A stretch of 64,000 nucleotides of DNA from a virus. The notes under the pieces were generated by a model. It was not told the origin of the DNA, did no database searches, and saw only the letters and a program-made list of their open reading frames with translations. Shown one piece after another: positions 19,212-23,153 of the stretch (positions within the stretch are counted from its first letter, which is position 1; each line of letters starts with the position of its first letter). Where the stretch lies: positions 1-64,000 of the IMG/VR virus record IMGVR_UViG_3300047172_000080; one strand, 5' to 3'. The translations under genes and the position numbers were made by a program.

Positions 19212-20510
19212 ATGTCTACCAATTTATCGAATTTTAACAGTAAAGTCAATCTAGCAAAAGTGGTTAAACAGTTTCCTGAATACAATGACTGGTTACTTCA
19301 AGAAGTTAAACCTTATGGTGAATTTGTAAGTAACGCTGATTTTAGTTCGGTTTGTAATATCTTTGATATTTGGATAGATAAAGATAAAAATCAATTATTA
19401 TCATCAGAAATCGTGTTTGAGGATATTACAACTAAATATCCACATTTATTAAAAGATCCTGTTATTTTTAACAATTATAAGCAAAAAACTATTGGTGAAG
19501 CTGAGCGAATGGAAAAGCTTTGGAGAAGTGTAGTTGAACATAGCCAAACTGAATTAAACTCAAAACTGTACCCTATTAATGAAAGTGGAGGTAAAATCAG
19601 TTTAGGTAAGTACTTTACTTACAGTGGTTATCCTGGAGTAGTAGAAAATAAATTCGGGCATATATCTGAAAATACTAGAAACCTATTTAATACCATGCAG
19701 AAATCATGGTTAAAGCTTCATGGTTTTAGTAAACCTATTATTGTACCTTACTATTATACTCCTAAACATATTTCTTATATTGAAGTATTTGATGCCTTGG
19801 ATGAATCAACGTGGGAAAATAGACGAATACTATATAGAAATGAGTATGCAGGATTTGCTGGTACAAGAGGGCATATTTTACCGGACTTTAAAGCCTTAAT
19901 GAATAGGCAAGGATGTTTATGGAATTACACTTTAGACTACTGGAATAAGACAGTTGTAACCATAGATGAAGATTGTCCTATTTGGGTACTTTTACATATT
20001 TATAAAACAGCAAAGCTTACAAAGTTTGCAATTGATCCGCTGGATATAATTAAAGATAAAAATCTAGGTAGTTTAGTAGAACCTTATTTAAAAGATCTAT
20101 CGAAAGAACAAGTTAGAGTTTTACAAGAGAAACTTGAATATACCGATTTATTAGATAAATGGAAAAACATTAAAAGTACCAGTTACGCAGTAGGTGACAT
20201 TACGTACTTTAAACGCCCAGAAGGTTACTTCTATATTTATAAAGGCAAAGAATTTCAACTGACTAATTTTAGTATTACTTTAGTTGATCGAATAAAAAAA
20301 GATGATAAGCCTTTTTATATATTAGATATAATTCAAGGCGATAAAACAATTACATTTGAAATTCCTCAAACTAAATTTAATTCCAGGTTAGGACTTATTA
20401 ATCATTTAAGAGAATTATTTTATGATTGTGATTTAGAGCCTCCAAAAATTTATCAACCTAGTGGAGAGCATAAATTAATGAACTTCATCTTTGATTATTT
20501 TGATAGCTAA
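19212..20510 (+). CDS. Hypothetical protein of unknown function (432 aa)
   Basis: This 432-residue protein is one of two plus-strand genes. The second half (GDITYFKRPEGYFYIYKG, then FYILDIIQGDKTITFEIP and GLINHLRELFYDCD) has a faint likeness to the domain preceding the ATPase in DUF927-type primase-helicases, but no P-loop is present. If that likeness is real, the ATPase half is absent. It is not a recognisable portal protein. It runs into the region holding the minus-strand noncoding RNA, so the two transcripts converge. Confidence 0.6.
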   Translation: MSTNLSNFNSKVNLAKVVKQFPEYNDWLLQEVKPYGEFVSNADFSSVCNIFDIWIDKDKNQLLSSEIVFEDITTKYPHLLKDPVIFNNYKQKTIGEAERMEKLWRSVVEHSQTELNSKLYPINESGGKISLGKYFTYSGYPGVVENKFGHISENTRNLFNTMQKSWLKLHGFSKPIIVPYYYTPKHISYIEVFDALDESTWENRRILYRNEYAGFAGTRGHILPDFKALMNRQGCLWNYTLDYWNKTVVTIDEDCPIWVLLHIYKTAKLTKFAIDPLDIIKDKNLGSLVEPYLKDLSKEQVRVLQEKLEYTDLLDKWKNIKSTSYAVGDITYFKRPEGYFYIYKGKEFQLTNFSITLVDRIKKDDKPFYILDIIQGDKTITFEIPQTKFNSRLGLINHLRELFYDCDLEPPKIYQPSGEHKLMNFIFDYFDS

Positions 20511-20885: not shown

Positions 20886-20942
20886 AAAAAAAAAGCGTTT
20901 TTTATCCAGTATATAGGTTTGATATCCCCCCTACATACTGGA
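20886..20942 (-). terminator. Strong terminator of the giant noncoding RNA
   Basis: On the minus strand TCCAGTAT...TAGG pairs with CCTA...ATACTGGA (20942-20930 with 20917-20905, one bulged base). It is followed after ten bases by nine consecutive T (20894-20886). This is the best intrinsic terminator in the 20.5-22.4 kb region and fixes the strand of the transcript. Confidence 0.7.
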
Positions 20943-21437
20943 CTTTCTCTTGTGAGAGACATGTAGAAAGAGTACACTTCACAAAGTCGTGTAACTTATA
21001 CTTCCTACCATGACTAATCGATGTGCATTAGCCATTTTCAGAGGGAACGTGCGTCATCACCGCATAACCTCTTATTGTTTGAATCTCCGTAGATTCCGCT
21101 CTATGCCTATTACGCTATTTATACTCGCATAGACGAGTTGGAAGAGTAGGTGCTTGCTACTATTGTTGTGATTTTCACAAACACCTACTCACTCCCGCAA
21201 TCAACTAACTGGCAAATAAAACCGAGAAAAAAATAAATGTTATTGGTTACATTGGTTTCAAACTACCTCCTGGAGTCAGGATGTTATGTTAAGCATCCTT
21301 AAATGGGGAAAAATGCAACGTGCTGTATCTTGGGGATACAACACGCTTAGTAGTATAGACCTGCATTGTCAGTCGTTTAGACGGCCAACCGCACGATCTT
21401 GGAACTTCTTCCATTTCTAGAAATTATTATTTATTCG

Positions 21438-21482
21438 CCCTTGCATGTGAGGAGAGTTTACTTAACTTCTCACATGCAAGGG
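21438..21482. repeat. 14-bp hairpin inside the noncoding RNA
   Basis: CCCTTGCATGTGAG at 21438-21451 pairs perfectly with CTCACATGCAAGGG at 21469-21482 around a 17-base loop. It is the most stable simple hairpin in the noncoding region. On the minus strand it is followed by an A/T-rich stretch without a T-run, so I read it as RNA architecture rather than a terminator. Confidence 0.75.
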
Positions 21483-21981
21483 TTTTCAGGGTTTCCAATT
21501 TCCCTAGCTTATTTTCTACTGCCCATAGAGATAACAAGCAAATTCATATGGGCGCTTCACGACTACTTGGTACTTTAATATTCAACCGTGAATATTGAAT
21601 ATAAAGGTTTTTGATGTGGAGATCTCTAACTCCAGGAAAAATCAACGCATTAGGAGAGCATCGAGTTTCTGTAAACTCTGTACTCAAAACTGAATTACTT
21701 TTTCAAGGTAGTCCTTCCTATTAGGACAATATATATATATATATAATTACTTACTGCTTGAAAAGCTAGACAATTCCCCCGCTAATTCAGTATTTATGTG
21801 GCTCTATAAGATTTACTTTAATTCAGTAAAGCAGCCGCTTATAGCATAAACATGTTTTTAGGTTCATGTCGTAAGTGAAGAGAATTTACCCCTCCTATCA
21901 GGCAATGATAAAGTTCTAAATGCTGCTGGTCCAGGTAACCCTTGGATTACTGCCGTAATTGCCAAACTCGTGTCCTACCAC

Positions 21982-22209
21982 GGCGATGCGTCTAGATCAG
22001 CTATAATACACCATCAAGAAAACAGAAGTTCTCCATCTATTGATATACTATATTTGCCATGCCGATCAAAATTATAGATTGAAGTCCACTTGTTCACACA
22101 ACGCATCGCCTAAGCTCAAGCTATAGAAAAGCTCTTTTCGTAACTATTACTAGAATACGATTCGCCCAACAGCATTCATGGCATCGGTTCAACAAGTGGA
22201 CTTCAATCT
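21982..22209. repeat. Two crossing inverted repeats (potential pseudoknot)
   Basis: AGATTGAAGTCCACTTGTT at 22076-22094 is the exact reverse complement of 22191-22209 (19 bp). GGCGATGCGT at 21982-21991 is the exact reverse complement of 22101-22110 (10 bp), which lies within the loop of the first pair. The arms interleave, so both helices together would make a large pseudoknot; otherwise they are alternatives. Confidence 0.75.
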
Positions 22210-22404
22210 ACATAATTTATATAAGGGAAATCTTTTCTGACATCTACTTGATGTATGTTTGAATGTGGTTGTGTGAAAATCTCTCAATTTGTGGAGCACA
22301 TTCAGCTTTAAAAGAACGAGTATTTGACCCTACATCTAGGTACATTTTAGCACAAGTAGATGCCAGAAAAGTGAAACAGAAACTAACAGCTTCCATTACT
22401 TATT

Positions 22405-22413
22405 ATTATACCA
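22405..22413 (-). promoter_or_regulatory. Extended -10 promoter driving the noncoding RNA
   Basis: The minus strand reads TTGGTATAATAATAAG, with TATAAT at 22410-22405 and the extended TGG just upstream. A double CCCCTCCCC-like tract lies about 27 bases further upstream (around 22431-22445). The same arrangement recurs at four other intergenic sites. Confidence 0.65.
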
Positions 22414-22445: not shown

Positions 22446-23153
22446 TTAATACCCATTATACCCCCCATAAGCACAATTATCTTGTCCATTATTGCCTTGG
22501 ACAGTATTAAAGGGGCGGGGGTATGAATTAGGAACATTACTGCGCTTATTAGCTGCCCCTGTTTCAATAGAATCGGGATTAGGACTAAAAGCAGCGTATT
22601 CAATATTAAAATATGACTTACCGAGAATTGAAGTTCTAGGTTTAATGCTAATAGCTTGATTTACCAAGCCTACAGCCCACACATCTAACTCATAAGTACC
22701 TTCTAACAAGGTTCCTGTTACTGAATTAGGAATAAAAATGACATAATGGTTACAATCTTTAGAATCTGTGTAGATACCGTTGTTTAATATACCTGCCCAA
22801 GTATAGGTGATAAGATATTGAGAAGCTTTAACAATTACATTCAATGTGTACTTGGTTAAATCTATAGGCTTTCCATCTAAATATAGAAATGCGTCATAAA
22901 TAACATCTTCTCCCTGATACCATACAGCAGAAGCATGATCTGAGCCAATAAAGTTAGAGCCTGGAATTCCTAAAGTATTTAAATCAGATTGTGGAATATT
23001 AGGATTATTAACTCTAGGAATAAGTTTAGAAGTTATTGGTATACAATTATCAAGTGGAATAGAACCTGAAGTAGGAGGGCAAGGATTACTACCTAGTTCA
23101 AAAGTAGTAGGTTGTGCAATGTCTACTTCATAGTAAGGGGGAGTTACAGGCAT
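22446..23153 (-). CDS. Probable virion-associated protein
   Basis: The 235-residue protein is rich in Asn, Pro, Thr and Tyr with beta-strand periodicity. Its central segment (DVIYDAFLYLDGKPIDLTKY, then LLEGTYELDVWAVG) resembles immunoglobulin-like tail or fibre domains. The C-terminus is Gly/Tyr/Asn-rich and ends CAYGGYNGY. It lies at the downstream end of the tail-tip gene cluster. The function is inferred from composition and position only. Confidence 0.5.
   Translation of the reverse strand: MPVTPPYYEVDIAQPTTFELGSNPCPPTSGSIPLDNCIPITSKLIPRVNNPNIPQSDLNTLGIPGSNFIGSDHASAVWYQGEDVIYDAFLYLDGKPIDLTKYTLNVIVKASQYLITYTWAGILNNGIYTDSKDCNHYVIFIPNSVTGTLLEGTYELDVWAVGLVNQAISIKPRTSILGKSYFNIEYAAFSPNPDSIETGAANKRSNVPNSYPRPFNTVQGNNGQDNCAYGGYNGY

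Follow-up and report, generated by a model that had tools for sequence, protein, structure and literature searches.

The window analyzed here comprises the first 64 kb (64,000 nucleotides) of a 79,152-base IMG/VR virus record and contains a single gap of nearly 2 kb. The large terminase subunit (phrog_675) and the tail sheath protein (phrog_279) encoded in the window indicate that the source is a tailed, contractile phage. The gap is flanked upstream by a minus-strand gene coding for a 235-aa protein (22446–23153) and downstream by a convergent plus-strand gene coding for a 432-aa protein (19212–20510); both proteins are of unknown function, and both genes serve as syntenic anchors.

A large structured non-coding RNA gene is predicted in the gap

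Frame lengths, Pfam searches, folding statistics and synteny all point to a large structured RNA gene at 20886–22398 on the minus strand, with a predicted transcript of about 1.5 kb (the window RNA). As stated in the original prediction, this segment lacks gene-sized frames: the longest ones comprise 50 aa on the minus and 59 aa on the plus strand, compared with 38–95 aa in shuffled sequences. The three longest frames touching the segment showed no match in Pfam, and reassignment of one stop codon did not open a gene-sized frame. A 50-aa frame with an ATG start at 22396 could be taken as a sign of a concealed protein-coding sequence; however, neither frame lengths nor Pfam nor stop reassignment revealed one, and this explanation, which we consider highly improbable, is already largely refuted.

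The minus-strand RNA (22398–20886) has a predicted minimum free energy (MFE) of −458.7 kcal/mol, corresponding to z = −9.8 against 60 dinucleotide shuffles. A repeat measurement yielded z = −10.3, as compared to values from +1.6 to −4.1 for 18 other 1493-nt segments of the window. In line with the original claim of at least six long perfect helices, the RNA contains seven stems with uninterrupted Watson-Crick pairing over 9 bp or more, the longest reaching 20 bp. Sixty shuffled versions had a mean of 0.85 such stems and a maximum of five, and no other 1.5-kb segment of the window exceeds five (mean 1.45). From 5′ to 3′, the minus-strand elements include a perfect 10-bp helix which is extended in the MFE structure (22362–22353/22250–22241), a perfect 20-bp helix (22210–22191/22094–22075), a perfect 14-bp helix (21482–21469/21451–21438), a 13-pair hairpin (21317–21347), and a 9-bp hairpin (21190–21182/21152–21144). 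Judging from the letters, a long-range pseudoknot of 10 perfect base pairs, GGCGATGCGT/ACGCATCGCC, may form between 22110–22101 and 21991–21982; its first arm is situated within the 20-bp hairpin, a type of pairing that nested folding programs cannot display. Two copies of ACTGAATTA (21827–21819 and 21791–21783) are each able to pair with TAATTCAGT at 21697–21689. These two identical 9-nt arms, sharing one partner, might constitute an alternative-pairing switch.

Immediately upstream, the box TGGTATAAT at 22413–22405 reads by its letters as an extended −10 promoter element. The exact motif occurs five times on the minus strand of the window and not at all on the plus strand, with 0.47 occurrences expected per strand, in agreement with the conserved-type promoter that had been proposed at this position; a generic sigma-70 scan did not report it because the TTGACA box is missing. 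At the other end, a hairpin/T9 terminator had been proposed at 20942–20886. Both the hairpin (20942–20909) and the T9 tail are present, but they are separated by a 10-nt spacer, which explains why a generic terminator scan did not list the element. Since it resembles a terminator without having the canonical form, it is weaker than originally claimed and is referred to here as terminator-like. Just 3′ of the hairpin, at approximately 20784–20685, the minus strand may contain a short frame (MKTTPTKIGLRQRILAAESNEQIIALLKEGEG, about 33 aa).

A Pistol ribozyme motif is embedded near the 3′ end

The only Rfam family found in the whole window is the self-cleaving Pistol ribozyme (RF02679), which was overlooked in the original prediction. 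It is located at 21063–21138, on the same strand as the RNA gene and immediately 3′ of the 9-bp hairpin, and scored 39.6 bits, above the Rfam gathering cut-off of 34.5, with E-values of 9.5e-4 when the window was searched with all Rfam families and 2.7e-7 when the 79-kb record was searched with the Pistol model only. As in other Pistol ribozymes, P1, the 6-bp pseudoknot of its loop (UCUAUG/CAUAGA) and the conserved core GAGUAUAAAUA...UAGGC...GAGCG are all intact. Cleavage is predicted near 21068–21065.

In Pistol ribozymes, the right shoulders of P3 and P2 are joined by exactly 2 nt, which contain the scissile bond. This 2-nt junction is strictly conserved (PMC4604425). Besides its location within a structured 1.5-kb RNA, close to the end, the window copy differs from the family in its atypical 3′ half: the strongest P3 results in a junction of 12 nt, while a 2-nt junction requires a P3 of 5 bp and a P2 of 3 bp. 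The half around the cleavage site is the weakest part of the motif, and the ribozyme is therefore possibly slow or dead; self-cleavage activity, judged from the letters, is no more than plausible.

The locus corresponds to a conserved slot for RNA genes

Several dozen related phage contigs were gathered by means of a terminase profile (45–54% identity). Searches for close relatives retrieved none with the window's own terminase, and one with the 235-aa gene. The gene order terminase, 182-aa, 342-aa, 432-aa, slot, 235-aa, 107-aa, 290-aa is kept in many relatives, and a GGTATAAT box likewise occurs near the start of the slot in most of them. In many relatives, as far as fragmentary contigs allow slot contents to be counted, the slot bounded by the homologues of the 235-aa and 432-aa genes contains a tmRNA gene and/or tRNA genes, often tRNA-Met or further tRNAs, which supports the assumption of a dedicated RNA-gene slot. 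The window differs from those relatives in that tRNA and tmRNA genes were found neither in the window (Rfam tmRNA model, RF00023) nor in the remainder of the 79-kb record (ARAGORN). The slot tmRNAs of loci L005/L015, L006, L009–L011, L020, L029, L032, L034, L040, L116, and L118 are predicted to encode tag peptides which, at about 30 aa, are unusually long (ANDNSYAMTVAEADALLNSFEFEAAEALAA is one of them) and whose pattern is conserved across the phage family. Further ORF-poor slot stretches of about 0.9–1.2 kb, extending beyond known RNA genes, were observed at L006 (16632–17522) and L121 (6714–8214).

Searches with the family model detected Pistol above the cut-off in seven other genomes (G024, G025, G026, G033, G035, G038, and G053), in each case within the slot. 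In G035 and G053, the slot RNA preceding Pistol is GOLLD (RF02032), with scores of 150 and 141 bits, respectively, and only about 10 nt separate the Rfam core from the Pistol that follows it. The G035 and G053 RNAs can be aligned with each other along the entire GOLLD part. Genes for GOLLD occur in phages and prophages; the RNA increases during lysis and assembles into an empty homo-14-mer shell (PMC12286853). The same paper describes an 833-nt molecule, a 5′ region of about 420 nt, and variation among the 5′ regions of GOLLD RNAs. GOLLD together with a same-strand Pistol was also detected in G086, G087, G092, and G109 (loci L166, L224, L207, and L218), phages which were found only via Pistol. 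Here Pistol is located 5′ of the GOLLD core, by about 425, 425, 841, and 1514 nt, respectively; given the length reported for the 5′ region, its position in G086 and G087 is close to the expected 5′ boundary.

In the other five genomes with a slot Pistol (G024, G025, G026, G033, and G038; loci L092–L096), the ribozyme lies inside a different, unnamed RNA of 0.55–0.8 kb, termed clade-B RNA. It was delimited at L092 (8512–9130), L093 (6960–7786, minus strand), L094 (9552–10090), and L096 (7815–8520), and its core is also present, without Pistol, in a further relative, L098 (approximately 6050–5480, minus strand). The clade-B RNA has a conserved core, TGAACAAAYCAYYCGCCT...AGGAACGCGCC, and the 3′ motif GTGAGTAGAG; compensatory changes occur at 25 of its 125 predicted pairs. 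No Rfam family matches it, and matches in a pattern search were confined to clade B. At L157 (8937–9054), a 34-bit match to the clade-B 3′-end model was obtained in a genome which also possesses GOLLD and Pistol; the clade-B core was not found beside it.

Among 88 distinct Pistol sequences gathered, the pseudoknot letters of the window copy recur only in the Pistols that the clade-B phages carry in this slot, with which it shares 88–93% identity over 42–50 nt. These similarities point to a common descent of the slot. The association of Pistol with large structured RNAs is partial, as many of the Pistol-bearing loci compared lack such an RNA.

Similarity of the window RNA to known large RNAs

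The original prediction could not match the RNA to either GOLLD or ROOL, and an Rfam 15 run on the region agrees, excluding both at the scores tested; apart from Pistol, no Rfam 15 family fits the RNA at those scores. With filters set permissively and a threshold of E ≤ 5, the GOLLD model (gathering cut-off 150 bits) did not match the region, nor did it match the record, while the same model scores the G035 and G053 RNAs at 141–150 bits. A profile HMM built from these two GOLLDs matched the window RNA solely at Pistol. ROOL (RF03087, gathering cut-off 99.1 bits) likewise gave no match in the region. Both models were also applied to the relatives and to 40 further phages with Pistol; the ROOL model remained silent there, as it did on controls, so that its silence is weak evidence if taken alone. 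Weak similarities of the region to BTnc005 (21.9 bits, cut-off 174.8) and mir-188 (about 18 bits, cut-off 72) were rejected.

With the clade-B models, the best match in the window was 9.5 bits for the core model (R2), outside the RNA, and 10.2 bits (E = 0.15) for the 3′-end model (R1), at 21192–21140. The latter segment, which contains GTGAGTAG and a hairpin, is a near-miss without significance as a clade-B 3′ end. Homologues in related phages, a search for which had been suggested along with the original prediction, were not found for the non-Pistol part: nhmmer and blastn searches with the upstream 1.26 kb against the loci of relatives, Pistol-bearing viral and genome stretches, and phage and plasmid collections yielded none. 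In an all-against-all blastn comparison of Pistol neighborhoods, the window RNA shared Pistol alone.

The window RNA resembles GOLLD in being a giant non-coding phage RNA located in the same slot, where Pistol adjoins GOLLD in G035 and G053, and in its size class; many GOLLD members exceed 800 nt, and the window RNA measures about 1.5 kb from promoter to T9. In contrast, it lacks a core-model match and is longer than the 833-nt GOLLD molecule, and its record is devoid of a tRNA island, GOLLD being often, though not obligatorily, found near tRNA genes. With ROOL it shares the character of a large ornate phage RNA, but not the model match. The clade-B slot RNAs (L092, L093, L094, L095, L096, and L098) have the slot and the promoter type in common with it, and in five of the six a nearly identical Pistol; however, they are only 0.55–0.8 kb long, and covariance models found neither their core nor their 3′ end in the window RNA. 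Since the GOLLD, ROOL, tmRNA, and clade-B models all failed to match, we do not file the window RNA under any of these families.

Proposed processing and role, and alternative explanations

The lack of coding potential, the extreme folding, the Pistol core, the promoter, and the synteny with GOLLD-plus-Pistol and other RNA genes provide good support, at the level of sequence, for reading 22398–20886 as the gene of a large structured non-coding RNA that has a promoter of its own. By analogy, the RNA is the positional, and probably also the functional, counterpart of GOLLD; it may work like GOLLD, considering the same slot, the neighboring ribozyme, an equal or larger size class, and the stronger fold. 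That it is a giant structured phage RNA, cut by Pistol near its 3′ end and serving a GOLLD-like architectural role, is the interpretation we favor, with somewhat more confidence than doubt; its transcription, cleavage, product stability, and GOLLD-like assembly and role are what we infer. Transcription would proceed leftwards from TGGTATAAT at 22413, without translation, and the transcript of about 1.5 kb would fold into a compact multi-helix molecule. Cleavage by Pistol around 21068–21065 would generate a 5′ product of about 1.33 kb ending in a 2′,3′-cyclic phosphate, and a tail of about 180 nt carrying the terminator. The 1.33-kb product would be the working molecule, and its role would most likely match that of GOLLD in the relatives, as an abundant architectural RNA during infection, possibly in the form of a homo-oligomeric shell.

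An unlikely alternative is that the window RNA is a highly diverged GOLLD, whose 3′ core has drifted past recognition by the Rfam model. Slot, promoter box, and Pistol neighbor are all as for GOLLD in G035 and G053, and the variable 5′ regions of GOLLD (PMC12286853) would fit; the silence of the GOLLD model in region and record, set against its scores in the relatives, and the restriction of the two-GOLLD HMM match to Pistol argue against it. Similarly improbable, in our estimate, is a non-coding transcript from which a number of small RNAs are processed, or a locus acting as antisense RNA or as a sponge, with Pistol merely separating two transcripts. The separate strong hairpins, the position of Pistol near the end, and slots of relatives harboring several RNA genes in series would be in line with such an arrangement, but the region contains a single TGGTATAAT box, and its domains are tied together by long-range helices spanning 120–139 nt and by the possible pseudoknot. 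Even less probable is a decaying region, i.e., a former GOLLD, tmRNA, or clade-B RNA with Pistol that is now drifting and non-functional. While the atypical P3 and junction of Pistol, the singleton nature of the RNA, and the absence of tmRNA speak for decay, the z-score of about −10 and the many perfect helices, which would be lost first under drift, speak against it; the 650 nt upstream of Pistol show a z-score of −8.5, compared with −4.7 and −5.0 for the two GOLLD relatives by the same measure.

To our knowledge, the function of the GOLLD and ROOL cages is not known, and the natural role of Pistol is poorly defined; none of the papers searched names both GOLLD and pistol. The position of Pistol directly behind the GOLLD core in G035 and G053, where its cut would define the GOLLD 3′ end, and its occurrence with three different RNAs in one slot (GOLLD, the covarying unnamed RNA, and the 1.5-kb RNA) suggest a testable role for this ribozyme, namely that it makes the ends of giant architectural RNAs; we infer that Pistol trims giant RNAs. 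A more far-reaching proposal is that the window RNA represents a new class of ornate giant phage RNA which shows no sequence relationship to either GOLLD or ROOL and is equipped with its own ribozyme for 3′-end formation. Its slot would then be one in which related phages retain Pistol and exchange the large RNAs around it (GOLLD, clade-B RNA, tmRNA). This proposal is tentative, and we rate its chances as slightly less than even.

Another candidate large RNA was observed at L203/L219, where an ORF-poor stretch of 1.36 kb is located upstream of Pistol (at L219 7237). Its folding is strong, with a z-score of −5.7 for 650 nt, and Pistol is its only Rfam match.
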